Shown piece by piece: positions 11,323 through 34,700 of a stretch of DNA of 37,269 nt (position 1 is the first letter of the stretch; each line of letters opens with the position of its first letter). Made by a program: the position numbers and the translations under genes. Below the pieces are notes generated by a model, which was not told the DNA's origin, did no database searches, and saw only the letters and a program-made list of their open reading frames with translations. Origin of the DNA: a bacterium (GTDB taxonomy: Bacteria; UBP15; UBA6099; DSWB01); the NCBI GenBank assembly GCA_020061125.1, contig JAGUYV010000165.1, positions 1 to 37,269 on the forward strand, in the 5' to 3' direction.

Positions 11323-12549
11323 ATGGCACTGGTTCCCCCGCATGGAAAAGAAAGAAAACTGAAGCCCCTGCTGCTCGAGGGCGACGCCCTCAAGGCGGAA
11401 CTCAAGAAGGCGGAAGGCTTGAAGAAGCTCGCCATGACCTCCATGGAAACATGCGACTGCATCATGATGGGCATCGGCGCGTTCACCCCGCTGGATGGCT
11501 TCATGTCCAAGGCCGACTGGCAGGGCGTGTGCGACAACATGCAGCTTGCCGACGGCACATTCTGGCCCATCCCCGTGACCTTGAGCGCAAGCCAGGAAGA
11601 CGCGGACGCCATCAATGTGGGCGACGAAATCACCCTCATCAACCCCGAAGAGGGCAATGAAATCATCGCCACCATGAAAGTGACCGAGAAGTACAGCATT
11701 GACAAGGTGCACCAGTGCAAGACCATCTACACCACGGATGATCCGGAACACCCCGGCGTGGCCAAGGTCATGGCCCAGGGTCCGGTGAATCTGGCTGGCC
11801 CAATCAAGGTTTTGAGCGAATCCGTGTTCCCCGAACAGTTCAAGGGCATCTACCAGACCCCGGCGCAGTCCCGCGCCATCTTCGAGGAAAAAGGATGGAG
11901 CCGCGTGGCCGCGTTCCAGACCCGCAACCCCATGCACCGCTCGCACGAGTACCTGGCCAAGATCGCGGTCGAAATCTGCGACGGCATCTACATTCACCAG
12001 ATCATCGGCAAGCTTAAGGCCGGCGACATCCCGGCGGATGTGCGCACCGAGTGCATCAACCTGCTGGTTGACAACTACTTCGTGAAGAACACCTGCGTGG
12101 TGGGCGGCTATCCCATGGAAATGCGCTACGGCGGCCCCCGCGAAGCCCTGCTTCACGCCGTGTTCCGCCAAAACTACGGCTGCAGCGACCTGATCGTGGG
12201 CCGCGACCACGCCGGCGTGGGCGACTACTACGGCCCGTTCGACGCGCAGACCATCTTCGACAAAGTGCCCGAAGGCGCACTGCTCACAAAGCCCCTCAAG
12301 ATTGACTGGACCTTCTGGTGCAACAAGTGCAACGGCATGGCTTCCATGAAGACCTGCCCGCACGGCAAGGAAGACCGCGTGCTGCTGTCCGGCACCGTGG
12401 TGCGCAAGACATTGAGCGAAGGCGGCGACCTGAACCCCAACTTCAGCCGCCCCGAAGTGCTCGAGGTGCTCAAGAAGTACTACGCGGGTCTCGAAGAAAA
12501 AGTCGAGATCAAGCTGCACGGCGCCGCCACCGGTGATGCCGGCAAATAA
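11323..12549 (+). CDS. sat: Sulfate adenylyltransferase (ATP sulfurylase)
   Basis: A 408-residue enzyme, the usual length for a homomeric Sat. It catalyses ATP + sulfate to adenosine-5'-phosphosulfate (APS) + diphosphate, the activation step of sulfate reduction, in the cytoplasm. Key signatures: [10 protein letters not shown] (residues 199-208), the nucleotide-binding HxxH-type motif with [12 protein letters not shown] (293-301); and a zinc-binding set Cys333, Cys336, Cys345 and His347. It starts with ATG behind AAAGGAG. Downstream, aprB follows after 200 bases in the same orientation, and aprBA and qmoABC complete the pathway branch. The enzyme also works in reverse in sulfur oxidisers, but the qmoABC context favours reduction or disproportionation. 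Transcription likely starts at the promoter at 11134-11162. Confidence 0.97.
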
Positions 12550-12749: not shown

Positions 12750-13187
12750 ATGCCAAGCTTTGTCAAAGTTGATAAGTGCGACGGTTGCAAAGCGCTCGAC
12801 AAGACGGCCTGCCAGCACATCTGCCCGAACGACCTGATGGCGCTGAACAAGGAAATCTCGAAGGCGTACAACCTCGAACCCGAAATGTGCTGGGAATGCT
12901 ACAACTGCGTTAAGATCTGCCCGCAGGACGCGATCGAAGTGCGCGGTTACGCAGACTTCGTGCCCATGGGCGCGAATGTCATCCCGATGCGCTCGTCTGA
13001 CTCCATCATGTGGACCGTGAAGTTCCGCAGCGGACAGATCAAGCGCTTCAAGTTCCCCATCCGCACCACCCCGGAAGGCTCCGCAGTGCCCGACGGCGGT
13101 TTCGAGACCGGAACCGACGATCTGAAGAGCGCCACGCTCTTCACCGAGCCCGCTTCCGCCGGTCTCCCTGCAATCTGGACCAAATAA
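12750..13187 (+). CDS. aprB: APS reductase beta subunit, ferredoxin-like
   Basis: A 145-residue iron-sulfur subunit of dissimilatory adenylylsulfate reductase. It transfers electrons from the Qmo complex to the FAD of AprA. Two [4Fe-4S] motifs are visible: Cys10, Cys13, Cys21 and Cys25 (with the family's unusual long spacing between the second and third cysteines), and Cys47, Cys50, Cys53 and Cys57. A C-terminal tail (from about 85) wraps around AprA in known structures. It starts behind AGGAGGTG. aprA follows 36 bases later. Confidence 0.96.
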   Translation: MPSFVKVDKCDGCKALDKTACQHICPNDLMALNKEISKAYNLEPEMCWECYNCVKICPQDAIEVRGYADFVPMGANVIPMRSSDSIMWTVKFRSGQIKRFKFPIRTTPEGSAVPDGGFETGTDDLKSATLFTEPASAGLPAIWTK

Positions 13188-13223: not shown

Positions 13224-14750
13224 ATGGCAGATTTTCAGGATGTTAAAGTCGTAACGGATCTTCTCATCGTCGGCGGCGGCATGTCCGCATGCGGCGCTGC
13301 TGTGGAAGCGGCGTACTGGGCGAAGAAGAATAATGTCAAGGTTACCCTGATTGACAAAGCCGCCATGGACCGCTCCGGCGCCGTGGCCATGGGCCTGTCG
13401 GCCATCAACCAGTATGTGGGCCTCAAAGACGGACAGAACACCGTCGAGGACTACATCAACTATGTGAAGCAGGACCTCATGGGCATCGCCCGCGACGACC
13501 TGGTCGCGTCCATCGCGCGCCATGTGGACTCCACCGTGCACCTGTTTGAAAAATGGGGCCTGCCCATTTGGAAAGACGAAAACGGCGGATACGTTCACGA
13601 AGGCCGCTGGCAGCTCATGATCAACGGTGAATCCTACAAGGTCATCGTTGCCGAAGCCGCCAAGAACGCCCTCAAAGAAATCAACGCCGAGATTTACGAA
13701 CGCGTCTTCATCGTGGAGCCCCTGCTCGACGGCGACAAGATTGCCGGCTGCGTGGGCTTCAGCGTCCGCGAGAACAAATTCTACACCTTCCAGTGCAAGG
13801 CTCTCATGGTCTGCATGGGCGGCGCCGTGCATGTGTTCCGCCCCCGCAGCACCGGTGAAGGTCTGGGCCGCGCCTGGTACCCGCCCTGGAACTCCGGTTC
13901 CTCCACCTACTTCACCCTCAAGGCCGGCGCAGAGCAGACCTGCCAGGAAATCCGCTTCATCCCCGTTCGCTTCAAGGACGCGTACGGCCCGGTGGGCGCA
14001 TGGTTCCTGCTGTTCAAATCCCGCGCCACCAACGCCCTGGGCGGCGAGTACATGGTCGAGCGCAAGGCCGAGCTTGAAAACTGGGCTCCCTACGGCCTCG
14101 TGAAGCCCATCCCCGCCAACCTGCGCAACTACCTGGGCATGCTGGACGTCAACGAGGGCAAAGGCCCGATCTACATGCGCACGGAAGAAGCCATCCAGAA
14201 CATCGCCAACCAGTACAAGGACGACGAGAAGGCCTTCAAGAAAAAAATGAAGGAACTCGAAGCCGAAGCATGGGAAGACTTCCTGGACATGACCATCTCC
14301 CAGGCCATCCTGTGGGCCGCGTCCGACATTCAGCCCGAAGAGAAGTCCTCTGAAATCGCCGCTGCCGAGCCGTACTTCATCGGCTCTCACTCCGGCGGTT
14401 CCGGCTGCTGGGTCTCCGGCCCGCAGGACATCGCTCCGGCCGAATACTTCTGGGGCTACACCAACATGTCCACGGTCACGGGCATGTTCTGCGTGGGTGA
14501 CGCCTCCGGCGCGTCCTCGCACAAGTTCTCCTCCGGCTCCCTGACCGAAGGCCGCATCGCCGGCAAGGAAGCCGTCCGCTACTGTGTCGATAACCCGGAT
14601 CTGCCCAAGATTGACGACGCCAAAGTCGCCGAACTTAAGGCCGCCATCCTGAAGCCCCTGGATATTTTCGAAGCCAACAAGGGCCTCACCACGGACCCGA
14701 ACATCAACCCCAACTACATCCGCCCCAAGATGTTCATGTTCCGCCTGTAG
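13224..14750 (+). CDS. aprA: APS reductase alpha subunit, N-terminal 508 residues up to an in-frame TAG
   Basis: Dissimilatory APS reductase flavoprotein: APS + 2 electrons to sulfite + AMP. FAD-binding starts with LLIVGGGMSACGAA (residues 13-26), and the fumarate-reductase-type fold continues with FRPRSTGEGLG, WYPPWNSGSS, FCVGDASGASSHKFSSGS and EGRIAGKEAVRY. These match the family closely along the length. It starts behind GAGAGGTGA, 36 bases after aprB. The frame stops at TAG (14748-14750), although the AprA family is normally about 620-660 residues. The frame then resumes after two codons and gives the rest of the family sequence, so the true product is interrupted, split or read through. 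The codons to the stop look normal, with no sign of decay. Confidence 0.93.
   Translation: MADFQDVKVVTDLLIVGGGMSACGAAVEAAYWAKKNNVKVTLIDKAAMDRSGAVAMGLSAINQYVGLKDGQNTVEDYINYVKQDLMGIARDDLVASIARHVDSTVHLFEKWGLPIWKDENGGYVHEGRWQLMINGESYKVIVAEAAKNALKEINAEIYERVFIVEPLLDGDKIAGCVGFSVRENKFYTFQCKALMVCMGGAVHVFRPRSTGEGLGRAWYPPWNSGSSTYFTLKAGAEQTCQEIRFIPVRFKDAYGPVGAWFLLFKSRATNALGGEYMVERKAELENWAPYGLVKPIPANLRNYLGMLDVNEGKGPIYMRTEEAIQNIANQYKDDEKAFKKKMKELEAEAWEDFLDMTISQAILWAASDIQPEEKSSEIAAAEPYFIGSHSGGSGCWVSGPQDIAPAEYFWGYTNMSTVTGMFCVGDASGASSHKFSSGSLTEGRIAGKEAVRYCVDNPDLPKIDDAKVAELKAAILKPLDIFEANKGLTTDPNINPNYIRPKMFMFRL
14748..14750 (+). other. In-frame amber (TAG) codon 509 in aprA
   Basis: The TAG lies between Leu508 (context KMFMFRL) and KLMDEYAAG on the same frame. 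From memory, AprA sequences read RLQKIMDEY here, so the TAG stands where glutamine (CAG) is expected, one base different. It is not TGA, so selenocysteine is excluded. An in-frame ATG follows six bases later (14757). Confidence 0.9.
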
Positions 14751-14756
14751 AAACTG

Positions 14757-15104
14757 ATGGACGAATACGCGGCCGGCGTGACCGCAACATTCTCCACCAA
14801 CAAGAATCAGCTCGAGCGCGCTCTGGAACTCATCGCCATGCTGCGCGAGGACTCCGCCAACCTGGCGGCCGAAGACCTGCACGAACTCATGCGCTGCTGG
14901 GAAAATGTCCAGCGCATGTGGCAGGCCGAAGTCCATGTCCGCACCATGCTGTTCCGCGAAGAGACCCGCTGGCCCGGTTACTACTTCCGCAGCGACTTCC
15001 CGAAGATGGACCAGGAAAACTGGAAATGCTTCGTGAACGCAAAGTGGGATCCCAAGTCCGGCGAGTGGGAAATGAGCAAGAAACCCGTCATCGAACTCAC
15101 CTGA
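14757..15104 (+). CDS. aprA: APS reductase alpha subunit, C-terminal part (115 residues) after the in-frame TAG
   Basis: This frame is in register with the previous one (1533 bases between starts, a multiple of three). It encodes the conserved AprA C-terminus: MDEYAAGVTATFSTNKNQ, DLHELMRCWENVQRMW, EVHVRTMLFREETRWPGYY and NWKCFVNAKWDP. Selection seems to have kept it, with no extra stop or frameshift. It could be made by reinitiation at the ATG 6 bases after the TAG or by readthrough, or the TAG is not real. The strong terminator at 15129-15156 follows, so the mRNA covers both parts. Without this part, the helical C-terminal domain of AprA would be absent. Confidence 0.85.
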   Translation: MDEYAAGVTATFSTNKNQLERALELIAMLREDSANLAAEDLHELMRCWENVQRMWQAEVHVRTMLFREETRWPGYYFRSDFPKMDQENWKCFVNAKWDPKSGEWEMSKKPVIELT

Positions 15105-16420: not shown

Positions 16421-16482
16421 CGCATCACGCAAGGCTTTTGCTTGTGGCAATAAACAAAATTCAGACAGAGGCGGGAAAAGAC

Positions 16483-17730
16483 ATGGCAGACATTTCAAAA
16501 CCCATCCTGGTCATCGGAGGCGGCATCAGCGGCGTGACCACAGCGGTGGAAGCGGCCGAGGCCGGCGCCAAAGTCGTCATCGTCGAGAGCAACCCCTATC
16601 TCGGCGGCCGCGTGGCCCAGCTTCACCAGTACTTCCCCAAGCTGTGCCCACCCAACTGCGGCCTCGAAATCAATTTCAAGCGCATCAAGTTCAACCCCGA
16701 CATCACCTTCTACACGGACGCCAAGGTCACGAGCGTGTCCGGCTCCAGAGGGAATTTTGATGTCACCATCACGCTCAATCCGCGCTTCGTGAATGAAAAA
16801 TGCACGGCGTGCGGCGAGTGCGAAAAGGTTTGCGCGACCGAAGTTCCCAGCAAGTTCAACTACGGCCTGAACAAGGTCAAGGCCATCAGCCTGCCGCACG
16901 AGATGGCGTTTCCGAACCGCTACTGGTTCGACGCTTCCGCGGCATCACTCGATGAGCTGAAAAAATGCGCCGCCGCCTGCAAGTACGGCGCCATTGACCC
17001 CGACGCCAAGCCCGAGACCGTAACCGTGAACGCGGGCGCCATCGTGGTCGCCACGGGCTGGAAGCCATACGACATGGCCAGCCTGGACCTGCTGGGCGCC
17101 GGGCAGTTGCCCAATGTCATCAGCAATGTTCAGATGGAGCGCCTGGCCGCGGAGAACGGACCCACCAAGGGCAAAATCCTGCGCCCGGCCGACCAGAAGG
17201 AACCCGAAAGCATCGCCTTCGTGCAATGCGCCGGATCCCGGGACGAGAACCACCTTAAACAGTGCTCGTCCATCTGCTGCCTGGCCTCGCTCAAGCAGAT
17301 CAATTATGTGCGGCAGCAATATCCCGACATCCCCATTTACATGTTCTACATTGATGTGCGCGCCAACGGCCGGTACGAGGATTTCTTCGTGAAAGTGGCC
17401 AAGGACGACGCCAACCTCACGCTCGTCAAGGGCAAGGTGGCGAGCATCAAACAGGACGGTCCCGACCTGCTGCTCGAGGCCGAGGACACGCTCACCGGCA
17501 AAAAGACGTCCCAGAAAGTGAACATGGCTGTGCTCGCAACCGGCATGCAGCCCGCCAGAAACGGCCTGTCGATCCCGGGGCTTGACTACGACGATATGGA
17601 CTTCGTGATTTCCGAACCGGACACCACGGGCATTATCGGCGTGGGTTGCGCCAAAAGCCCCGTGGAAGTGGTCCAGTGCATGCGCAACGCCACCGGCGCC
17701 GCGCTTAAAGCCATCCAATGTTGCAAATGA
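16483..17730 (+). CDS. qmoA: QmoA, HdrA-like flavoprotein of the Qmo complex
   Basis: A 415-residue cytoplasmic subunit of the quinone-interacting membrane-bound oxidoreductase. The ATG at 16483 is preferred over the TTG at 16438 because GGCGGGAAAAG precedes it and MADISKPILVIGGGISG puts the FAD fold at its normal place. The FAD motif is at residues 10-17 (VIGGGISG). Cys107, Cys110, Cys113 and Cys117 (CTACGECEKVC) form a [4Fe-4S] motif, and Cys54, Cys59 and CSSICC add HdrA-type cysteines. The complex couples menaquinol oxidation to APS reductase. qmoB starts 20 bases later. Confidence 0.95.
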   Translation: MADISKPILVIGGGISGVTTAVEAAEAGAKVVIVESNPYLGGRVAQLHQYFPKLCPPNCGLEINFKRIKFNPDITFYTDAKVTSVSGSRGNFDVTITLNPRFVNEKCTACGECEKVCATEVPSKFNYGLNKVKAISLPHEMAFPNRYWFDASAASLDELKKCAAACKYGAIDPDAKPETVTVNAGAIVVATGWKPYDMASLDLLGAGQLPNVISNVQMERLAAENGPTKGKILRPADQKEPESIAFVQCAGSRDENHLKQCSSICCLASLKQINYVRQQYPDIPIYMFYIDVRANGRYEDFFVKVAKDDANLTLVKGKVASIKQDGPDLLLEAEDTLTGKKTSQKVNMAVLATGMQPARNGLSIPGLDYDDMDFVISEPDTTGIIGVGCAKSPVEVVQCMRNATGAALKAIQCCK

Positions 17731-17750
17731 CTTGAGGAGGATATACCGAA

Positions 17751-19985
17751 ATGGCAGATAAAATGGTGAAAAAGACAGGCGTATACCTCTGCAGCGGCTG
17801 CGACATCGGCGGCGCTCTGAATATGGAAGCGCTCGAAAAGATGGTCAACAGCGAAGTCAAGCCCGCAGTGTGCAGAACCAGCGAAGCCCTGTGCTTGCCC
17901 GAGGCATGGGCCGCGGTGGAAGCCGACATGAACAACGAGGGCGTGAACTGCGTGCTGCTGTGCGCTTGCTCCTCGCGCGACAAAACTGATGTGTTCGCTG
18001 TGGATCTCGACAAACTCATCGAGCGCGTGCCGATCCGCGAGCAGGTGGCGTGGGTCTCAAAACCCAATGACGAAGACACGCAGATGCTGGCCGAGGACTA
18101 CATCCGCATGGGCGCGTCCAAGCTCAAGGACATGGAGCCGCCCGTGCCCTGGTTCCAGGAAGACGAAAAAGCCGAACCCATTGACAAGACCATCCTGGTC
18201 ATCGGCGGCGGCATCGCTGGCATGACTGCGGCCCTCGAAACCAGCAAAGCCGGTTACAAGGCAGTGCTCGTGGAAAAGGAATCCCAGCTCGGCGGTTTCG
18301 CCAACAACTTCAAGAAACAGACCCCTACCAAATCCCCTTGGACCGATCTTGAGGATCCCGGCGTTGCCGCCCTTGCTTCGGCTGTTCAGGGCGATGGCAA
18401 CATCACCGTACTCACTGGAACTACCGTGGAAAAGATCAAGGGTGGCCCCGGCCTGTTCGACTGCTCATTCACCGGCGGCAAGGAAATGCGCGTGGGCGCC
18501 ATCGTGCAGGCATCAGGCTGGAAACCTTACAAAGCCGAAAAGCTGGATCACCTGGGCTATGGCAAATCCTCCGATGTGGTCACCAACATCGAGTTCGAGA
18601 AAATGGCCAAGGCCGGCGCCATTAAGCGCCCGTCCGACGGAAAATCGCCGGACAGCGTGGCGTTCATCCAGTGCGCCGGATCGCGCGACGCCGAACGCTT
18701 GCCCTACTGCTCCAGCGTGTGCTGCGCGGTCAGCCTCAAGCAGGCCAAGTATGTGCGCGAGACCAACCCGGACGCCAAAGCGTACATCATCTACAAAGAC
18801 ATGCGCACACCCGCGCAGATGGAGAATTTCTACAAAGCCATGCAGGCAGACCCCGGCATCATGCTCACCAAGGGCGAAATCCGCTCCATCGAACTGGACG
18901 CGGACAAATCCCTTGGCATTGAAGTGGGCGAAACCATCCTGGGCGGCGACATCAAGCTGAACGCCGACATGGTTGTGTTGGCCACCGGAATGGTGCCCAG
19001 CACCCTTGTTGAGGACGACGACGCCGCAGGCACCGGCCTCACCGAAGACGGAAAGAAAGCCGCGGCCAGCGCCGAAGCCGGCGCCATGATTCTCAACCTC
19101 GGCTACCGCAAGGGCACGGATCTGCCCACCCTTAAGTACGGGTTCCCGGACTCGCACTACATTTGCTTCCCCTACGAAACCCAGCGCACGGGCATCTTCG
19201 CATGCGGCACGGTACGCGCTCCCATGAGCGTGGCGCAAACCGTATCCGACGCCACGGGCGCGGCCCTCAAAGCCATCCAGTGCGTGGAACTCACGGCAAA
19301 GGGAAATGCCGTGCACCCGCGCAGCTACGACAATGCCTACCCCGAGTTTTTCTTGAGCCGCTGCACCCAGTGCAAACGATGCACCGAGGAATGCCCGTTC
19401 GGCACCCTGGACGAGGACGAAAAAGGCACTCCCAAGCCCAACCCCACTCGCTGCCGCCGCTGCGGCGTGTGCATGGGCGCTTGCCCCGAGCGCATCGTGT
19501 CCTTCAAGAACTACAATGTGCCCATGATCGGCAACATGATCAAATCCGTGGAAGTGCCGGATGAAAGCGACGAAAAGCCCCGCATCATCGGCCTCATCTG
19601 CGAGAACGACGCCCTGCCCGCCCTGGACATGGCCTGCAAACTCAAAACCCAGATCAGCCCCTGGATCCGCTTCGTGAACCTGCGCTGCCTGGGTTCGGTC
19701 AACACCGTATGGGTGGCCGACGCCATGAGCAAGGGCATGGACGGCATCCTGCTCTTCGGCTGCAAGTACGGCGATGACTACCAGTGCCACTTCATCAAGG
19801 GCAGCGAGCTGTGCAACCGCCGCATGGAGAACATCTCCGAGACCCTCGACAAACTCGCTCTGGAATCCGATCGCATCAAGATGGTTGAGGTAGCCATTTC
19901 CGACTACCAGAAACTGCCACAAATCATAAACGACTTCTGTGCGGAAATCGAAGAACTCGATCCCAACCCGTACAAGGGGTTCTAA
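17751..19985 (+). CDS. qmoB: QmoB, HdrA/MvhD-like flavo-iron-sulfur protein of the Qmo complex
   Basis: A 744-residue subunit behind GAGGAGGATA. Residues 1-140 resemble the HdrA N-terminal domain (GVYLCSGCDIGGAL, then Cys41 and Cys48, LLCACSSRD). FAD-binding (VIGGGIAGMTAAL) is at about 150-162. A two-cluster ferredoxin domain has Cys538, Cys541, Cys544 and Cys548, then Cys568, Cys571, Cys574 and Cys578. A MvhD-like C-terminal domain (from about 600, with FGCKYGDDYQCHF and CNRR) is typical of QmoB and would contact a redox partner. It works with QmoA and QmoC to deliver quinol electrons to AprBA; electron bifurcation has been proposed for the family. Confidence 0.95.
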   Translation: MADKMVKKTGVYLCSGCDIGGALNMEALEKMVNSEVKPAVCRTSEALCLPEAWAAVEADMNNEGVNCVLLCACSSRDKTDVFAVDLDKLIERVPIREQVAWVSKPNDEDTQMLAEDYIRMGASKLKDMEPPVPWFQEDEKAEPIDKTILVIGGGIAGMTAALETSKAGYKAVLVEKESQLGGFANNFKKQTPTKSPWTDLEDPGVAALASAVQGDGNITVLTGTTVEKIKGGPGLFDCSFTGGKEMRVGAIVQASGWKPYKAEKLDHLGYGKSSDVVTNIEFEKMAKAGAIKRPSDGKSPDSVAFIQCAGSRDAERLPYCSSVCCAVSLKQAKYVRETNPDAKAYIIYKDMRTPAQMENFYKAMQADPGIMLTKGEIRSIELDADKSLGIEVGETILGGDIKLNADMVVLATGMVPSTLVEDDDAAGTGLTEDGKKAAASAEAGAMILNLGYRKGTDLPTLKYGFPDSHYICFPYETQRTGIFACGTVRAPMSVAQTVSDATGAALKAIQCVELTAKGNAVHPRSYDNAYPEFFLSRCTQCKRCTEECPFGTLDEDEKGTPKPNPTRCRRCGVCMGACPERIVSFKNYNVPMIGNMIKSVEVPDESDEKPRIIGLICENDALPALDMACKLKTQISPWIRFVNLRCLGSVNTVWVADAMSKGMDGILLFGCKYGDDYQCHFIKGSELCNRRMENISETLDKLALESDRIKMVEVAISDYQKLPQIINDFCAEIEELDPNPYKGF

Positions 19986-20009
19986 TCAGGATTCCGAGGA
20001 GGTTATTGC

Positions 20010-21263
20010 ATGTCACACCACAAACCCGAAGTCATTAAGCCGGACCTCAAGTTCGCCACCGAGGTCATCGGCATGGGCGCGGACGACATGGAGAAGTGCT
20101 ACCAGTGCGCCACCTGCTCGGTGGTGTGCCCCATTTCTCCGGCCGACTCACCCTTCCCCCGCCGCGAAATGCTCTGGGCGCAATGGGGCCTCAAAGACAA
20201 GCTCATGGGCGACCCCAATGTGTTCCTGTGCCACCAGTGCGGCGACTGCTCGGACAAGTGCCCGCGCGACGCCAAGCCCGGCGATGTGCTCGGCGCCATC
20301 CGCGCCTTCGCCTACAGGCACTTCGCCACGCCGTCCTTCATGGGCACGGCCTTGAGCGACCCCAAGTTCCTGCCTGCGCTCATCCTGTTCCCGGCCGTGC
20401 TCCTGCTCGCCATCATGGGCGTACTCTCCACAGGCATCCCCGCGGACATAGCCGCGAGCATCCTGCCCGAACGCCTCGCGCACCTCGAACACGAGTTCCA
20501 GATCGCCTTCTTCCCCGCAGGCAAAATCGTGTTCGCCAAGATGTTCCCGCATCTGGGAATGGTTGACGCTGTCTTTGTAACTCTATCTCTGCTCGTATTC
20601 CTCTCGTTCTTCGCCAGCATCAAAAAGTTCTGGTCCGCCATGGAAACCACGGTGGACCTGCCGAACAAGAAGTCCGTGGGCGAAGCGTTCAGCGAAACGC
20701 TGTCCGAGTTCCTGCCGCACAAGAAGTTCACCGAATGCGGCGACAACAAGGATCGCGCCCAGCCGCACATGCTCCTGTTCTGGAGCTTCGTGATCCTGTT
20801 CGTGGTCACGGCTTTCGTAGCCGGCGGCTTTTGGGTCTTCGATGTGCTCATTCCGGCCGTGGGCGCGGAGGTTCACAACCCGTTCCTGTCACCGCTGGAC
20901 TTCAAGAGCGTGTCCCACATCATCCTCAAGATCATGGCCGCCGCGGGCGCCGCACTTCTGATGTACGGCATCATCAAGATCATCCAGAACCGCAGCAACC
21001 CGGACAAAAAAATGAACACCAGTTACGCGGACTGGTTCTTCATCGGCGTGGTGTTCGCCGTTGGCGCCACGGGCATCCTGTCCTGGGCCTTCCGCCTTGC
21101 GGGCATCGGTATCCTGGCCTACAGCGTGTACTTCCTGCACCTCGTGGCCGTGTTCATGCTTCTGGGCTACTTCCCGTTCTCTAAGTTCGCGCACATGGTC
21201 TACCGCTTCACCGCCATCATGTTCGCCAAAGTCAAGGACATTGATGTGAAACTGGCCGCGTAA
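20010..21263 (+). CDS. qmoC: QmoC, membrane subunit of the Qmo complex
   Basis: A 417-residue fusion of an HdrC-like ferredoxin part with a NarI/HdrE-like membrane part. The first part has two [4Fe-4S] sets: Cys30, Cys33, Cys36, Cys40 and Cys74, Cys77, Cys80, Cys84. The second has five or six transmembrane segments from about residue 113 to 410 (LPALILFPAVLLLAIMG, AVFVTLSLLVFLSFFA, LLFWSFVILFVVTAFVAGG, IMAAAGAALLMYGII, WFFIGVVFAVGATGILSW and AVFMLLGYFPFSKFAHM), with histidines placed to bind heme b. It oxidises menaquinol. The start follows GAGGAGG, 24 bases after qmoB. A terminator follows. Confidence 0.95.
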   Translation: MSHHKPEVIKPDLKFATEVIGMGADDMEKCYQCATCSVVCPISPADSPFPRREMLWAQWGLKDKLMGDPNVFLCHQCGDCSDKCPRDAKPGDVLGAIRAFAYRHFATPSFMGTALSDPKFLPALILFPAVLLLAIMGVLSTGIPADIAASILPERLAHLEHEFQIAFFPAGKIVFAKMFPHLGMVDAVFVTLSLLVFLSFFASIKKFWSAMETTVDLPNKKSVGEAFSETLSEFLPHKKFTECGDNKDRAQPHMLLFWSFVILFVVTAFVAGGFWVFDVLIPAVGAEVHNPFLSPLDFKSVSHIILKIMAAAGAALLMYGIIKIIQNRSNPDKKMNTSYADWFFIGVVFAVGATGILSWAFRLAGIGILAYSVYFLHLVAVFMLLGYFPFSKFAHMVYRFTAIMFAKVKDIDVKLAA

Positions 21264-21389: not shown

Positions 21390-21523
21390 ATGAATATGTG
21401 CGAAGCTTTTGTTACCAGTTGCATACCAAGCCATATTGATAATGCTTACAACCGGGTGGAATGGAGTCCGTCCGCGCCCATGAAGGCGCGGGCACATCGT
21501 TTTTGAAAGGATGGCCAATACAC

Positions 21524-23254
21524 ATGACGGAAACTGGAAAACGCATCGTTATCATCGGCGGCGTGGCGTGCGGACCCAAAGCGGCGGCGCGCGCGCGGCG
21601 CTGCGATCCTCACGCGCACATCACCATGATTGAGCAGGGGGAATTCGTGTCCTTCGCGGGCTGCGGCATGCCCTACTACATCGCGGGCGCAGTGCCGGAA
21701 AAAGAAGGCCTCATGACAACCACCACCGGCTATGTGCGCGACCCCGAATACTTCAGGCTCATGAAGGAAGTGACCGTGCTCACCGGAACGCGCGCGGACC
21801 GCATTGACCGGGAAAATAAGCTCGTTCATGCAACAAACCTCAAAACCGGGGAAACTTCGGCGTTCCAGTATGACAAACTCGTTATTGCCACGGGCGCGCG
21901 GCCCATCGTTCCGCCGCTCGAAGGCATCAATCTCAAGGGCATCTACACCCTGCGCAGCCTCGAGGAAGCCATTGAAATCCGCAAGACCATCGAAGAGAAC
22001 ATGGAACTTGAAAACGCGGTCATCGTTGGCGGCGGCCGCATCAGCCTGGAAGTAACCGACGCATTCGCCAATCAGGGCGTGGACGCCACTATTGTCGAGT
22101 TGCTCGACTCCCTGCTCGCCACAATGCTCGACCCCGAGCTGGCTCTCTATCTCGAAAACACGCTCAAAAAGCACGGCATGACCATACTCACAAGTGAAAA
22201 AGTGCTGCGCTTCGAGGGAGACTCCGACGGGCGAGTGGCGAAAGTGGTCACCGACAAGCGGGAAATTGATGCGCAAATGGCAATAGTGGCCGTTGGCGTG
22301 CGCCCAAATGCGGATCTCGCAAAAGCCGCCGGACTTGAAATCGGGGAATCAGGCGGCATCAAGGTCAACGAACATATGCAAACCAGCGACCCCGACATTT
22401 TTGCGGGCGGCGACTGTGTGGAGACCGATAATCTCGTCACCGGCAGAAAGTGCCTCATGCCCCTCGGATCCGTTGCCAACCGGCAGGGCCGGGTGATCGG
22501 CGACAACATCACCGGCTTCAGCAGAGACACCTACCCGGGCGTGGTGGGAACCTCCATGCTCAAGGCCCTGGATCTCAATATCGGAAAAGTTGGCCTCACA
22601 GAATCCGAAGCGTCAAGGATGGGGTACGACGCCGTATCCATGATCAGTCCAGGCGCGGACAAATCGCACTTCTACCCTGGCGGGAAGACCTTGATCATCA
22701 AGCTCGTGGCCGAACGCGCATCCCAGCGCCTGCTCGGCGTACAGGTCATAGGGCCAGGAGACATGCCCAGGGTTGTGGACACCGTGGCTGCGGCGCTTAC
22801 CGCCAACATGACCCTGCATCAACTCGCCAATCTTGATGTAGGCTACGCCCCTCCCTATGCGTCCGCCATCTCGCCACTTGCGCACTGCGCCAATGCGCTT
22901 CGAAACAAAATCAACGGACTGGCGGAATCCCTTTCTCTTCCCGATTTCAAAAAACGGCTTGATACACGGGACGATTACATGCTTCTCGATGTGCGCAAGG
23001 AGAACGAAGCCGCCAATGCAACAATTGACGATCCGCGATACCTGATGATTCCCCTTCACGAACTGCCGGAGCGCATGCAGGAAATCCCGTCTGACAAAAA
23101 GATCATTTCCATCTGCCAGGTCGGCGGCCGTTCCTACGAAGCCGTTCTCACGCTCAAGGGCAAAGGCGTACGCAACGCATGCTATGTTGAAGGCGGTATG
23201 TCGGCATGGAGCAAAACTTTCGGCGCTGGACAAGACGACGGGCACGATGAATGA
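21524..23254 (+). CDS. CoA-disulfide/NAD(P)H-dependent polysulfide reductase-like flavoprotein with C-terminal rhodanese
   Basis: A 576-residue cytoplasmic protein. The ATG at 21524 is used because GAAAGGATG lies upstream and the FAD motif IIGGVACGPKAAARARR then sits at the N-terminus. The active-site cysteine Cys47 lies in SFAGCGMPYYIAG, as in CoA-disulfide reductases. An NAD(P)-binding GGGRISLE is near residue 170, and FAD contacts in AGGDCVE. The C-terminal rhodanese domain (about 475-565) keeps its sulfur-carrying cysteine (Cys531, ICQVGGRS). Npsr-type enzymes with this layout reduce polysulfide, elemental sulfur or CoA persulfide. Position next to qmoABC and a DsrK-like gene points to sulfur-intermediate handling. 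Reductase substrate is inferred from family, not shown. Confidence 0.85.
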   Translation: MTETGKRIVIIGGVACGPKAAARARRCDPHAHITMIEQGEFVSFAGCGMPYYIAGAVPEKEGLMTTTTGYVRDPEYFRLMKEVTVLTGTRADRIDRENKLVHATNLKTGETSAFQYDKLVIATGARPIVPPLEGINLKGIYTLRSLEEAIEIRKTIEENMELENAVIVGGGRISLEVTDAFANQGVDATIVELLDSLLATMLDPELALYLENTLKKHGMTILTSEKVLRFEGDSDGRVAKVVTDKREIDAQMAIVAVGVRPNADLAKAAGLEIGESGGIKVNEHMQTSDPDIFAGGDCVETDNLVTGRKCLMPLGSVANRQGRVIGDNITGFSRDTYPGVVGTSMLKALDLNIGKVGLTESEASRMGYDAVSMISPGADKSHFYPGGKTLIIKLVAERASQRLLGVQVIGPGDMPRVVDTVAAALTANMTLHQLANLDVGYAPPYASAISPLAHCANALRNKINGLAESLSLPDFKKRLDTRDDYMLLDVRKENEAANATIDDPRYLMIPLHELPERMQEIPSDKKIISICQVGGRSYEAVLTLKGKGVRNACYVEGGMSAWSKTFGAGQDDGHDE

Positions 23255-23355
23255 CGCGCAATTGTGCGGTGGCTTGCCGCACATTAAAATTGTGAATAAC
23301 AAGATTAGAGTCGCACTCAAACATGGTGGAAATCCAACAAGGGAGGACATTCTCA

Positions 23356-24732
23356 ATGTCCGATTCACAAGAACAGGGATCAGCATCACAGGAGCCAGCT
23401 GTCCCGAATCCCTTACCTTTCAGCGTGGAAACGCCCTGCGGCCCCGGGTGCGCGGAAAAATTTCTCGATGCGTTCAGGGCAATCCTCAAACATTCGAACT
23501 ACGCTGCCATGCTGGATCAGTACGCACGCGTGGACATGCGCTGCGGGCACTGCGCGGACATGTGCCAGATCTACAAAACAACGAAAGATCCCAAGGACAG
23601 TCCCTGCTACCGCACCCAAGTGCTGCTCAACATCTACCGGAACTACTTCATGCTCGACGCAGGCAAAAAGTCCGCCTGCAAAAAAGGGCCGTTGCAGGAC
23701 AGGGACATCATCGAATTCGTGGACTCGTACTACCGCTGCACCACATGCAGGCGCTGCACACAGGAATGTCCGGCCGGCATTGACCATGCGCTGGTCACGC
23801 ACCTGGGCCGCTATATCCTTTCTGAAATGGGCGTCATCCCCAAACCGCTTCAGGCCGCAGTGCGCAACCAGATCGAGGGCGGACACAACAACATCATGAA
23901 CATGTCCCTGCCCGCGCTTCAGGACACGGTCGAATTTCTAGAAGAGGATCTGCAGGACCTGACGGGACAGGAGATCAGGATTCCGATCGGCAAACGAGGC
24001 GTGGATTACATTTTCTACCCGCCAGTCAGCGACTTCATGTCAGAAGCCGAAACCCTCATGGGACACGCCGCAGTTTTTCATGCCATGGGTCTCGGAGACA
24101 ATTGGACCATCAGCGATCAGGTCTATGATTCAAAAAACTACGGGTATTATTACAGCGACTGGATTTTCGAACGCGTGATGAAGACCATGGCCGAAGACAT
24201 CAAGCGGCTTGGCGGCAAGTTCATCGTGATTGGCGAATGCGGGCACGCCACCAAAGCGTCAAAAATCGGGATGGCTTCATGGCACGGACCTAAAGCTCCG
24301 CATGTGCTGAACAGCATCGAATTGCTTTATGACGGCGTGGTGTCCGGCAAGCTCAAGCTCAACCCGGACGCGGTCACGGAAAAAGTCACTTACCACGACC
24401 CCTGCAACATCGGGCGCAACTACGGCCTGTTCGACGAACCGCGCTACATCCTAAAACAGTTCTGTAGGAACTTCGTGGAACTCAAGCCGAACCGCGCCAT
24501 GAACTGGTGCTGCGGCGGCGGCCCGTCGTCCATGGACGACACCAAAGAATTCCGCATGGACATTTCCGGCAAGCTCAAAGCAGAGCAGTTGAAGAATTCA
24601 GGCGCTGATATCGTGGTCAGCCCCTGCGCAAACTGCAAGAAGCAAATCAGCGAACTCATCGCCCATCACGGGCTGAACATGCAGCGCAGCGGCTTGCATG
24701 ATCTGGTCCTCAAAGCTATCGTCTGGGATTAA
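23356..24732 (+). CDS. DsrK/HdrD-like iron-sulfur protein with a CCG domain
   Basis: A 458-residue protein; the ATG at 23356 follows GGGAGGA, and the longer frame from 23323 has no ribosome binding site. Two [4Fe-4S] sets are seen: MRCGHCADMC with a further cysteine in DSPCYR, and RCTTCRRCTQECPAG. The C-terminal half has the cysteine-rich motif of HdrD/DsrK/TmcB proteins: HDPCNIGRNYG, then NWCCGGGPSSM and VSPCANCKK (Cys-X34-CysCys-X37-Cys-X2-Cys), which binds a noncubane cluster acting on disulfides. No transmembrane segment or heme motif is seen, so it needs a partner, and DsrM- or TmcC-like membrane subunits are not in this window. Of DsrK, TmcB and HdrD I cannot choose firmly. The gene follows the CoADR-rhodanese gene by about 100 bases. 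Confidence 0.8.
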   Translation: MSDSQEQGSASQEPAVPNPLPFSVETPCGPGCAEKFLDAFRAILKHSNYAAMLDQYARVDMRCGHCADMCQIYKTTKDPKDSPCYRTQVLLNIYRNYFMLDAGKKSACKKGPLQDRDIIEFVDSYYRCTTCRRCTQECPAGIDHALVTHLGRYILSEMGVIPKPLQAAVRNQIEGGHNNIMNMSLPALQDTVEFLEEDLQDLTGQEIRIPIGKRGVDYIFYPPVSDFMSEAETLMGHAAVFHAMGLGDNWTISDQVYDSKNYGYYYSDWIFERVMKTMAEDIKRLGGKFIVIGECGHATKASKIGMASWHGPKAPHVLNSIELLYDGVVSGKLKLNPDAVTEKVTYHDPCNIGRNYGLFDEPRYILKQFCRNFVELKPNRAMNWCCGGGPSSMDDTKEFRMDISGKLKAEQLKNSGADIVVSPCANCKKQISELIAHHGLNMQRSGLHDLVLKAIVWD

Positions 24733-27956: not shown

Positions 27957-28095
27957 TTTCCTTTAATCAATTTTCAACTTTCGAAAATCGTTGGATATTC
28001 TTCTTAGTATTATTGAGCTACAAATTACGAATATCGGTCTTAACACTTTCAACAACATGACTATGTGTTTCTACATATTTTTCATTGTGCATGAA

Positions 28096-28200
28096 TCAAG
28101 GCAACCGATAGAAATGGCAATTCTTCATCAGGCATGGACTGCCCCGGTGTCCGAATGCATCATCGGGATCAATTTCAGCCGCGCATTCTTCACATTTCAT
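28096..28200 (-). CDS. Possible 34-aa zinc-ribbon mini-protein
   Basis: On the minus strand, an ATG behind AAGGAG at a spacing of 8 starts a 34-codon frame ending in TGA. The four cysteines pair as Cys3-X2-Cys6 and Cys23-X4-Cys28, a compact zinc-binding layout like the spacing in the 98-aa protein near aprA. Other residues include DPDDAFGHRG and HFYRLP. The frame lies in an AT-rich region where long ORFs are absent, and its composition is protein-like. Good ribosome binding site and cysteine spacing favour a real gene; no family is recognised. Confidence 0.5.
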   Translation of the reverse strand: MKCEECAAEIDPDDAFGHRGSPCLMKNCHFYRLP

Positions 28201-28738
28201 TTTCCTGGCTCCTTGTATGCAAACAAGCTCCGGGGGCTACTCTCACCCCGCAAGTCCGCATATTCCTGATTCACTGCATCCTGCGTGTTACCTGAATTGC
28301 ATTCGCGGCCTTGAGACCGTTTACGCTCTGATTTTCATAAGCCAAGTATTTTCCTCAAATCAATCCCCTGCAATGCTTTTTTTTGCACTAATCCCGTGCA
28401 AATAAACGCATTGGCGCACTGAATTGCCCGTGTACAAGGCGATTGATGCGGTGTGCAATTGTGTTTTTTCTGTTAGCTTGGCTGGCGTATCCAATCTTTG
28501 ATTTGATTTTCTAATTACAAAAAAAATATCTACAGAAGTTACATTCACAGAAAAATCAAGTAAAATAATGTAATTTTCAGATTTATGGTTGATTATAAGC
28601 ACATTTTAGCATATTTATTGATTGAGTCAATCACAATTACGAATTATGTCCGACCTGGCTAATAATATTGCCTATATGTTACATTTGTTTGGCATATAAA
28701 TTGTTGTTAATAACACAAAAAATGCAATTCAAGGCAGT
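28201..28738. other. AT-rich intergenic region upstream of the giant gene
   Basis: About 540 bases with low GC and no convincing gene. It contains the 15-bp palindrome TGATTGA-G-TCAATCA (28619-28633), a possible operator, and AT-rich runs. The frames found here lack ribosome binding sites. A promoter for the giant gene should lie here, but no clear sigma-70 match was found. The ribosome binding site AAGG is 8 bases before the ATG at 28739. Confidence 0.5.
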
Positions 28739-31700
28739 ATGAAACTTTCAGAAACAACGAGATTCCTAAAGATTGCGGCGGCCAGTCTGATTATGGCGGC
28801 GTTTGTGGCGTGTTCCGCGGTTGCTCAAACCAAGGACTGGCCGTTCACAGTTCCAGGAAATTACACTTATGACAGCACAAAAATTGATGTGTCCGGCGGC
28901 ATGGCGGGCCTCATCACCCAGGGCTGGTACAACGATTGTTACAAGTACCGCAGAGAGATTGTGATAGACAACACCACCGGGGGCGCGCAAGCCGATTACC
29001 AGGTCAGAATTCAGCTCGATTCCTCAAATTTCGATTTCGCCAGCGCCGCAGCCAACGGGTTTGACATCCGGTTCACCAATTCCGACAAAGTCACACCCAT
29101 AGATTTCTGGCGCGAAGGCTACAACTTCGGCGCATCCACCGCCACTTTCTGGGTTGAAATTCCGGTTTTGAACGCGGCGGCCACGCAATCCATATGGATT
29201 TATTACGGCGATGCGTGCGCCGCACCCACGGACGGCAGCGTATATACAAATGTCTTTTTCCATGTCGGTGAATACGGCACAATGACCCAGAACCCCATGG
29301 GCACTACATGGGACGCCGTAAATTTCACCGCGGCTATGGATGTGAATCCCGTTGTGGTGTCCAGCATCCAGACTGCGGTGGATTCACCCAATGCAAACGA
29401 CCGCCTCCTTCCGCCCGGAGGCAACAACTGCGGCGGAGCCGACGGTTACGCCGATGGTACCGCCGTGCCCGTAGTGAGAAATGTGACCACAAACGGGTTC
29501 CAGATGAATTCTATGACCAAATCCATAGATTGCGATGCTGTTCACGGCGTGGAAACCATTGGCTGGCTTGCGATGGAACAGGGAACCTATTATGTGGGCG
29601 ATCGCCTGTTTCGAGTATTTACGCAGACCATGAACAAACCCGCAGCTGCGGAGAATTTTGCGAATGTCAATTTCGGCTACACATTCCCCGATGTCCCCGT
29701 GATTCTACCCCAGGTGCAGACATACAATAACACCGCCACCAACAGCGTACGCATGCGCAACGGTGGAGTGAGCAGCATCCAGGCTTTTATTGAGGGTGAG
29801 CAAGATAACACCACATTTGCAAACAATGAAACCGTGGGGTTCATCGTCGCCGATCAGGCTGGCGCCGACGACATTTTGGGACTGAATCTTTCAGATGCAC
29901 AGATTGAAGGAGAGTTGGGCAGCACTCCCGAAGGCGGCATGCAGCATATCTGGCAGATACAGAATCTGCAAAATGTGTTTTTCGAACCTCCCGTGGTGAT
30001 TCTCAAAGCCCAAACAAATAATGGCGGCGATAACGGCCACGAACGCCTGCAAAGCATAACAACCACGAATTTTGAGCAGAGGTTTTCAGAAAATTTTTAC
30101 GCATACACAAATAGTTATGACGGCAATCACTTCAACGACGAGGGCGGTTCATTCATTGCACTGGGACGGCAGTTCGCGGGCGCATCGCGGCTGATATATG
30201 CGCGCAAATACGCAGCCAGCGAACCGTCAACCACCGTGGCTGCGACCTTCGAGGAATACAATCTGGACCCGGCCATCAGACCCGTGACGGTTGATGGCGT
30301 TTCGTTCGCCGAGGTCACGGCGTTTTCCCATACCCTCGGGCCGGGCACGGGCAGCGTGCAATATCAGATCAGCAACGACGGCGCGGTCTGGCATTACTGG
30401 AACGGCGCCAACTGGGTGGTTTCCAACCTGTCCTACGCGCAGTCCAACAGCGCGGCCGCGGTGAACGCCAACATCGCGCAGTACGACAACGACCAGGGCC
30501 AGGGCACTTTTTACTTCCGCGCCATTCTGCACGCACCCACGGTCACGGACGACATCGCACTTGATCATGTGAGCATCACATACACAATTCCGCCGCCCGC
30601 GCCGGACATTTTCGGAATCGCCCCCAACCCCGGCCTCATCGGCGGAACCGTGACCATCACCGGCGGCGACTTCGGCGCAACCCAGGCGGGCGTTGGCGGC
30701 AAGGTGTATTTCAACGGGTGCGACGCGGGCGCGGCATCGGCCTGGAGCGATAATTCCATCACGGTCACCGTGCCTACCTGCGCCACCAACGGCCCGGTCA
30801 CGGTGTTCGCCAACGGGTATCTGTCCAACGAATTCAACTGGACCATCGCCGTTCCCAGCATCACCTTCCTGGACCCGGCCAGCGGCGACTTCTATCAGCT
30901 CGTGTGGATATACGGCGACAATTTCGGACATGTTCAGGGCAATTCTTATGTGACTTTCCAGAGCGGCCTGTATGCGCAGGTGCTTTCTTGGAGCAACGGC
31001 GCCATCCGCATTGTGGTGCCCGCGGGTGCGGTATCCGGCGATGTGGAAGTGGTCACGGCCGGAGGCGCGAGCAACGGAGTGACCTTCAACATCACCCCGG
31101 ACCAGTCGCGCTGGCCGTTCACCTATGCGGCGAACTATTCCTATAATTCCGCGCTCATCACCGTGACCGGCGGACAGGCCGAACTCAAGCCCATCAATGT
31201 GCCCACCTGGTACGACAGGCGCTGGCTCTACCGCCGTCTTATCACCATCAACAACACAACAGGCGGCCCGCTCACGAATTTCGTGGTGGATCTGAACCTC
31301 AACAACACGAATTTCAGCTTCGCCAATGCGCGCACCAACGGCGAGGACATCCGCCTCATGACCTCGGACGGCACAACACTCCAGAACTATTGGGTGGAAT
31401 CCTGGAATCAGGCGGGACAAACCGCGCGCGTGTGGCTGCGATGCGGAACCCTGGCCGCAGGCACGAATTATTTCTACATTTACTACGGCAACAGCGCTGC
31501 CCCGTCCCTGTCCGATTACACCACGACCCTGCACCAGATCGGCGAGGTGCAGAAAAATGCGACCACCAACGCCAACAACTGGACAAACAATGTCGCGTTC
31601 ACCAACGCATTCCCCAGCGCGCCCGTGGTGTTCGCGCACATGCAGACCCGCAACAACTCCAATGAAGCGCACACGCGCGTGCGCAACATCACCACCACCA

Positions 31701-34700
31701 AATTCGATGTGGCGGTGGAAAGCTCACGCACCATCACGCACAGCGGGAACGAAACCATGGGCTGGATCGCGCTTCGGCCCGGCGCCTGGGAAATCGGCGG
31801 TGCGCGCATCATGGCCGGCACGCAAGCCAATGTGGACGAAGACGCCTGGGCCACCGTCAATTACCCCTTCAGCTTCAGCGCCGCGCCTGGCGTCATCGCC
31901 ATGCAGCAGACGGTGAATATCTACAGTTCAGCTCAAGATAGCAACGACAAGTCCCAAGTGCGAATGCGCAATATCGGCGCCAACAACTTCCAGATCCGAA
32001 TCGAACCCGATGACGATGCGGCATTCGATTACGATCCCCGAACTGAAACCATCGGATACATCGCCGCGGACCTGGCCACTTTCGACACAGCCCTGCCTCT
32101 GCTCAAGGGCCAGATGCAGCAAAGCACCGTGGAAACGCCCAATGTGTTTTATTACGAGTGGATTGACATCACCTCGGCGCACACCGCGGCGCCCGTGGTT
32201 CTGCCCGCCATCGGCACGGCGAACGGGTGGGTCGGCTCATCGGTCGAGAACACCGCGCACTCGCGCATCAAGTCCGTGACCACTTCGCGGTTCCAGTTGC
32301 AGCTCGAAGAATGCGACGACTGCACCGAGGGGCACGCGTTCGAGGATGTGTCCTGGCTGGCCATGGACTCGGGCCTGATCTGGGGCCGCCAGTACATCAA
32401 TCCAATGCCCGCGGCGGCCGTGGGCGGCGAGCAGGTCATTCTCTACAGCACGGCCGCACCCACTATCGAGCCGGCAACGGACGGCGAATACTTTGATGGC
32501 CTGGCCGGTTTCTACCAGCTCGAAGGATACGAGAATGTAGGCAGCATCCGCTACCAGATCACCAACGATCCCGCCACAAGCACTTTCTACTGGTACGATG
32601 GCGCAAACTGGGCCACGGCCACAGTGGGAAACACCGCGCAGACAAACACCTCCATTGATGTAAACGACTACATCCCGCTGTTCGATGCGCAGTACGGAAC
32701 GGGCACATTCTTCTTCAAGGCATATCTGATCAGTGACGGCTTCCAGCTCGTGCAGGTTGACGGCATCGGCATCATCGAGCGCTCCGAGATCTTGAGCAAC
32801 TACAACTGGGCCACCTCAACCACGCCGCCGCCAATCTTCTTCGGCGATTTTGTAAACGCGGGAATCAATCCGAATCAGGAATTCCTGCTCGCCATTCAGG
32901 TCGCGCACGACGGCGCAACCGGAACCTACAACTTCCAGTTGCAATACCAGGAAGACCCGTTTGGAACACCGGGGCCATGGACCAGCATCAATCTGGCATC
33001 GGCCAAATGGAAAGCCGTGAACGGCGCCTGGGGCGCTCATGACGACACAGTGTTTGTGGCGGACTTCGCCAATTCGCCCTATACCGGCACAGCGATTGAC
33101 GGCGTGTATTCGGAAACAGGCATCGTCAACACATTCGAATTCGCCAGCGGGCAGTTCTACGCGGAATTCTGGTACGCCATCATCCCAGACGCCACAACCG
33201 CGAACAAGGAATACCAGTTCCGCGTGGTCAACGGCACAAGTTCCGCAAACTTCGCGTACAAAATCTATCCAAAGACCGGTCCGCCGCCCGATCCCATCAC
33301 ATTGTTCATTGACGCGCCTTACACATCCGCGGGCGTGAAATACACGGACACGCCCATCCTGGACCTGCAGTTCACCTGCACGGACCAGCCCAACGCCCTG
33401 TACGGCGACTGCGACGCATCGGACGGCATGCGCCTGGGCTGTTCCCTGCTCGGCGTGAACAGCGTGGCCACGCAAAGCTATGTGGTCACGCCGCCCGCAT
33501 ACAGCTTCAACCTGGGCGCGCCGCCCGTTGCCGCGGAATGCACCGCCGCCGATGGACAGAAAAACATCTACCTTCAGGCGCAAAACGAACGCACTTACCT
33601 TCAGGTGAACCCGGCAACGGACACCATCATCCTCGACACCACGGCCCCGGACATCAGCACGGCCACGCTATTCGTGACCAGCAGCCAGGACGATTATCTC
33701 AAGGGCACCACCGACGGCGTGGTGTGCGACCCCTCGCTTGCGCCCGCGTGCACGGTGTGGTTCAACAGCAACGCGGGCCAGGGCGCGGGCCAGTTGATTT
33801 ATGTACTCGTGGACGCACTGGCCGGCGGCAATATTGACCAGAACCCTGACACCTTCGGCGGCTCCGCGGCTTTCAACGACACGCCGCCCATGGATACCAG
33901 CGCGGCCGCGGACTGGCTCGTGGACAACTACAGCGTGGAAGCCGGACACGGCGACGAGCTTGGCGTGACCTTCACATTCACGGACAAGGTCACGAAAACA
34001 GACACATTCACCATTGATTTCCAGTGGGACGGCCAATCCCCGGACACCATCGCGTCCGCGCAGGTCACGGCCTGGGACGCCGCGGCCAAGAACACGAATT
34101 TCAGTTATTATCAATGGATCAATTATTCCAATCCCTATTTCGAGTGGGCCAACCCCGCGGACCGGCCCTACGGTGCGCTCCAGAGCAGCGGCTTCTGGCG
34201 CTACCAGTCCTGGTTGAGCACGGATCCAACCTTCGTGCCCAGCACCGCCACTCTTGCCAATTTCCTTGAAGCCACTGGCCCGCTCGAAAACGGAACCCAG
34301 TATTATGTCGTGGTCACCACGAACGACTATGTTACGAACTCCTCCACACCCACCGTGTCCTATGCGTTCCGTTACGACGGCGTGGACCCGATCTTCGATT
34401 ACAACTCTCCGGCCACGGGAACACAAACCATCTGGTACAGCCAGGACCCGGGAGCAATCACAGACATTGATGTCTTGTGGTCCAGCGGCTCGCCCCTTGT
34501 GGATTACAACTACCGCATCAACGCAGGCGCATGGCAGAGCGTCTTCTCCGGTTCGCAATCCTCGGATTACACCAATGATTGGGCACTGAACTGGGCGCTG
34601 CTCCCCGAGGGGCCGAACAGCATCTCCATCTCCGCGCATGACGAATCCACGAACGGCGCCACGGAAACATACGCCGCCACAACAAGCGGGTTCCAGTTCC

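Follow-up and report, generated by a model that had tools for sequence, protein, structure and literature searches.

The aprA gene and the sulfate-reduction locus

The aprA gene, encoding the alpha subunit of adenylylsulfate reductase, is located at positions 13224..15104 of the forward strand of the window (the whole stretch of 37,269 nucleotides that was analysed), where its frame runs from the ATG at 13224 through 508 codons to an in-frame TAG at 14748-14750 and then through a further 117 codons to a TGA at 15102-15104. When the entire assembly was searched with profiles, TIGR02061 matched the gene with 902.5 bits (curated cut-off, 641.75 bits) over positions 1-615 of 616, spanning the stop and recording '1 TAG' inside the match, and phmmer pairs the product with 1jnr_A at an E-value of 1.5e-237. 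PF00890 matches the upstream piece and PF02910 the downstream piece, with the latter beginning at residue 508 when the TAG is read through. Membership of the dissimilatory AprA proteins is indicated by this full-length match above the cut-off, with one TAG read through, as well as by the adjoining aprB within a sulfate-reduction cluster; what the gene lacks is an uninterrupted frame, owing to the TAG at 14748-14750. The chance that 117 residues of conserved family sequence would follow a random stop is nil.

The frame, together with the profile match across the stop, confirms the position of the TAG given in an earlier reading of the window from sequence alone (hereafter the sequence-only reading). 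The 115 codons which that reading placed after the stop are indeed undamaged, but the number counts from the ATG at 14757, whereas 117 codons follow the TAG itself. The same reading held that a second intact aprA elsewhere in the genome would tell against it; the profile search of the assembly finds one aprA only, and the gene is single-copy. Repeats within aprA are limited to short two-copy ones, and a literature search found no published reports of in-frame stops in aprA.

The genes surrounding aprA form an operon-like cluster in the same orientation, comprising an intact sat for sulfate adenylyltransferase (11323..12549, forward strand; PRK04149, 518 bits, and TIGR00339, 383 bits), an intact aprB (12750..13187, forward strand; TIGR02060, 208 bits, above cut-off) and intact qmoA-, qmoB- and qmoC-like genes (16438..21263, forward strand), which are identified by HdrA2-like matches and, for QmoC, by NF038018 with 434.5 bits. 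In addition, dsrA and dsrB are both intact on another contig. Since aprA is present as the only copy and sat, aprB, the qmo genes and dsrAB are intact, loss of aprA would abolish an otherwise intact pathway. Directly after qmoC, at 21461-24732 of the window, lie two genes, the first for a CoA-disulfide-reductase-like protein that carries a rhodanese domain at its C-terminus and the second for a DsrK/HmcF-like iron-sulfur protein. Towards the end of the window, two long open reading frames on the minus strand (30227-31672 and 33668-35992) are without a Pfam match, and the stretch from 28000 to 37269 may be little characterised, or may not code for protein in the frames of the long open reading frames.

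Both aprA and dsrAB are present in two of the seven genomes of the phylum examined, namely the source genome and one other, and the aprA stretch of the latter is identical to JAJRTR010000091.1 (isolate Dive96_bin1.91). The top genome matches of the window's aprA have 77-79% identity, and by DNA the window AprA is closest to Acidobacteria sequences (~79% identity). Together with the distribution among the seven genomes, this affinity suggests that transfer or loss of sulfate reduction may have occurred within the phylum.

The stop codon replaces an invariant glutamine

The TAG (14748..14750, forward strand) stands at an invariant Gln codon, which corresponds by alignment to Gln522 of A. fulgidus AprA. 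Gln occupies the interrupted column in all 82 relatives with at least 62% identity, and none of the neighbouring residues R, L, K, M, D, E and Y varies among the 83 sequences. Within a wider set, the codon at this position is CAG in 71 cases, CAA in 13 and another in three (Asn, Asn and Ile), besides the TAG of the window, and no AprA relative compared carries TAG there. The remaining Gln codons of the window's aprA are CAG throughout (17 of 17). Because the close relatives have Gln without exception, mostly encoded by CAG, one C-to-T change explains the stop, which on this alignment is best described as a single C-to-T transition from CAG to TAG. Both the missing glutamine and the sufficiency of one base had been proposed by the sequence-only reading, and both proposals hold. 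Compared with the dissimilatory AprA of sulfate reducers (A. fulgidus 1JNR; 3GYX), the window AprA matches over its full length across the stop and retains all of the near-invariant C-terminal residues, such that one codon differs, TAG in place of the CAG or CAA for the Gln of RLQK(I/L)MDEY.

The region downstream of the stop is conserved

The sequence following the TAG (14751..15104, forward strand; PF02910, E-value 2.1e-9) encodes the conserved C-terminal part of AprA, that is most of the helical domain, and ends with the TGA. None of the 39 near-invariant columns after the stop is violated by the window AprA, compared with 6 of 246 before it, and the ratio of downstream to upstream identity (0.888) falls inside the 5-95% range of the relatives (0.848-0.912). 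From these comparisons, we infer that full constraint on aprA either persists or ended only very recently, in keeping with the earlier view that the intact flanks argue against old decay.

The helical domain of A. fulgidus AprA comprises A488-A643, and it has been suggested that two alpha-beta heterodimers touch each other mainly through this domain; Arg265 and His398, residues of the active site, are located upstream of it (PMC2211403). Alignment to the A. fulgidus protein places the break in the window AprA ~34 residues inside this domain. Ordinary termination at the TAG would leave a 508-residue AprA, probably inactive, in which the FAD domain and the capping domain are retained but roughly three quarters of the helical domain are missing.

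TAG usage and single-base defects in the genome

Stop codon usage was surveyed in ~1.2 Mb, corresponding to 29% of the draft assembly, using a dicodon model and a best-of-frame scan. TAG is an ordinary working terminator in this genome, since it ends 108 of the 857 putative genes in the sample (~13%). Two non-tandem stops break a strong coding signal on both sides within the 1.2 Mb, and both are TAG, one in aprA and the other in an acyl-CoA dehydrogenase gene; no strong in-frame TAA or TGA was seen in the sample. Four weaker candidates for in-frame stops were rejected as tandem genes on the basis of their Pfam matches (AIRC with DegV, Radical SAM with TPR, M28 with Radical SAM, and VapB with PIN).

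The second in-frame TAG splits an acyl-CoA dehydrogenase of the short-chain type within its C-terminal domain (TEI*AARNLLYKA; L284:1959-1961, G000:C217, minus strand), and PF00441 matches at positions 1-64 before the stop and 66-149 after it. The five best solved homologues have H, Q, E, E and N at this position, and thus the stop is not at a conserved Gln. A probable deletion of one T within a T-run also breaks the gene for a DUF255/thioredoxin-domain protein (L199 near 11734, G000:C41, minus strand), between ...WLVPH and FEKMLYDQ. PF03190 covers the upstream piece of the protein, whereas the downstream piece is without a Pfam match and is presumed from its motif to be the continuation. The acyl-CoA dehydrogenase TAG and the T-run deletion point to a low background of isolated single-base gene breaks in the sample. 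Given the codon usage of the genome, 50-56% of random single-base nonsense changes are predicted to produce TAG, with CAG-to-TAG as the largest or second-largest single class, and therefore two of two in-frame stops would be TAG by chance with a probability of ~0.25-0.3.

Origin of the in-frame TAG

The TAG in aprA is a real feature of the sequence, and its biology is most likely ordinary. We lean, with some reservation, towards a consensus error or a minority-strain base in a fragmented metagenome-type draft, rather than a fixed mutation, as its source. A C-to-T difference would have converted the CAG of the invariant Gln to TAG and left the rest of aprA sound, the wrong or minority base would have entered the consensus of a draft of 513 contigs that is 79% complete, and most cells of the species would carry an intact gene. 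This explanation is favoured because the codon is one change away from that of every close relative with no decay elsewhere in the gene, because other isolated single-base defects occur in the assembly and because inactivation of aprA would disable the pathway as a whole. Counting against an error, the occurrence of TAG at both strong in-frame stops hints mildly at a TAG-specific cause, and the defects in the acyl-CoA dehydrogenase and DUF255 genes could be real mutations.

A less probable explanation, but one to be taken seriously, is a very recent and real nonsense mutation, such that a strain carrying the TAG would produce AprA cut at 508 residues and would have lost, or be losing, sulfate reduction. 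A single transition is enough for such an event, its youth would fit with the lack of any trace of decay, and further single-base gene breaks are found in the assembly. However, the mutation would have struck a single-copy gene while the other genes of the pathway are intact, and a consensus error is more likely than the capture of a null allele still free of other damage.

The sequence-only reading also raised the possibility of a split AprA, in which the 508 residues would be complemented by a C-terminal piece of 115 residues made by reinitiation at the ATG six bases past the TAG (14757..14759, forward strand). The ATG is present as described, and the two pieces would meet near a domain border, given that the helical domain starts at A488 in A. 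fulgidus. Rather than an added start, however, the codon encodes a Met that the alignment reveals to be invariant in the family (83 of 83 sequences), so that it is not an adaptation, and no Shine-Dalgarno-like motif precedes it. Moreover, the break falls those ~34 residues within the helical domain rather than at its border, and a split aprA occurs in no relative compared. Together, these observations make a split protein improbable.

Decoding of the TAG

Decoding of the UAG as Gln or another residue, whether by a suppressor tRNA or by natural readthrough, would yield a full-length AprA, and both the conservation of the C-terminal part and the presence of a TAG in a second conserved gene, next to no strong in-frame TAA or TGA in the sample, would be consistent with this. 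We nevertheless consider such decoding highly improbable. The Gln suppressor tRNA suggested from the sequence finds no counterpart in the source assembly, although its draft state (513 contigs, 79% complete) weakens negative results for decoding machinery: no tRNA(CUA) is present among the 40 tRNA genes matched by RF00005, ARAGORN also finds none, the tRNA-Gln anticodons found are TTG and CTG only, and a BLAST search with the CTG gene detected no further copy resembling it, including any tRNA-Gln(CUA)-like gene. A genome with UAG reassigned to Gln would avoid TAG as a terminator and carry many in-frame TAGs at Gln positions, whereas here TAG regularly ends genes, the second in-frame TAG is at a variable E/Q/N/H position and none of the AprA relatives compared shares the first. 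Nor is there a stimulatory RNA structure 3' of the TAG, where folding resembles that of shuffled sequences (z 0.13). The identity of the interrupted residue recalls the TAG-to-Gln reassignment of genetic code 15 phages (PMC9523058); in contrast to these, TAG is a normal terminator here, no tRNA-Gln(CUA) was found and the genome is cellular. Similarly, it is very doubtful that the phylum tolerates a low level of TAG-specific suppression, by which the TAGs of conserved genes (aprA and acyl-CoA dehydrogenase) would be read as Gln or a similar residue while TAG elsewhere terminates.

Insertion of pyrrolysine at the aprA TAG, also among the suggestions of the sequence-only reading, is exceedingly improbable. 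Some known sulfate reducers use pyrrolysine as well as selenocysteine, and the pyrrolysine-coding Deltaproteobacteria-bbl resemble the present case as sulfate reducers with an in-frame TAG (PMC8318568), but in this 79%-complete genome no pyl genes or tRNA were found (PylS, best match of 26 bits, with the cut-off at 178; PylD, no match; one control genome above cut-off for each), the pylT anticodon-arm pattern occurs at about the level of a reversed control without a match at 0 or 1 mismatch, two MttB-family genes are free of in-frame TAG, and the TAG replaces an invariant Gln that belongs to a structural domain, outside a methylamine methyltransferase and not in the active site of a corrinoid methyltransferase. 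A '1 TGA' flagged in an MttB match was rejected as a recoded stop, since this codon terminates the gene before it in the tandem. The tandem pair at L248:14964-17768 (forward strand, G000:C464) consists of two MttB-superfamily methyltransferase genes without pyrrolysine, and the small gene that follows resembles one for a corrinoid protein.

Implications

Taking all routes together, decoding of the aprA TAG is a slim prospect, and it is unlikely that this codon reveals a novel reading of the genetic code. The interpretation offered by the sequence-only reading is partly supported, being right about which gene is affected, where the stop lies, the Gln that it replaces and its origin by a single base, and fair in the alternatives that it listed, although those of its suggested checks that could be made on the assembly speak against the more exotic ones. 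Decoding of the TAG would amount to amber suppression, either leaky or programmed, acting on a core respiratory enzyme in an uncultured phylum of bacteria. As matters stand, the locus is mainly a warning: automatic annotation would break aprA in two or omit it, and the organism would then be wrongly classed as incapable of sulfate reduction.
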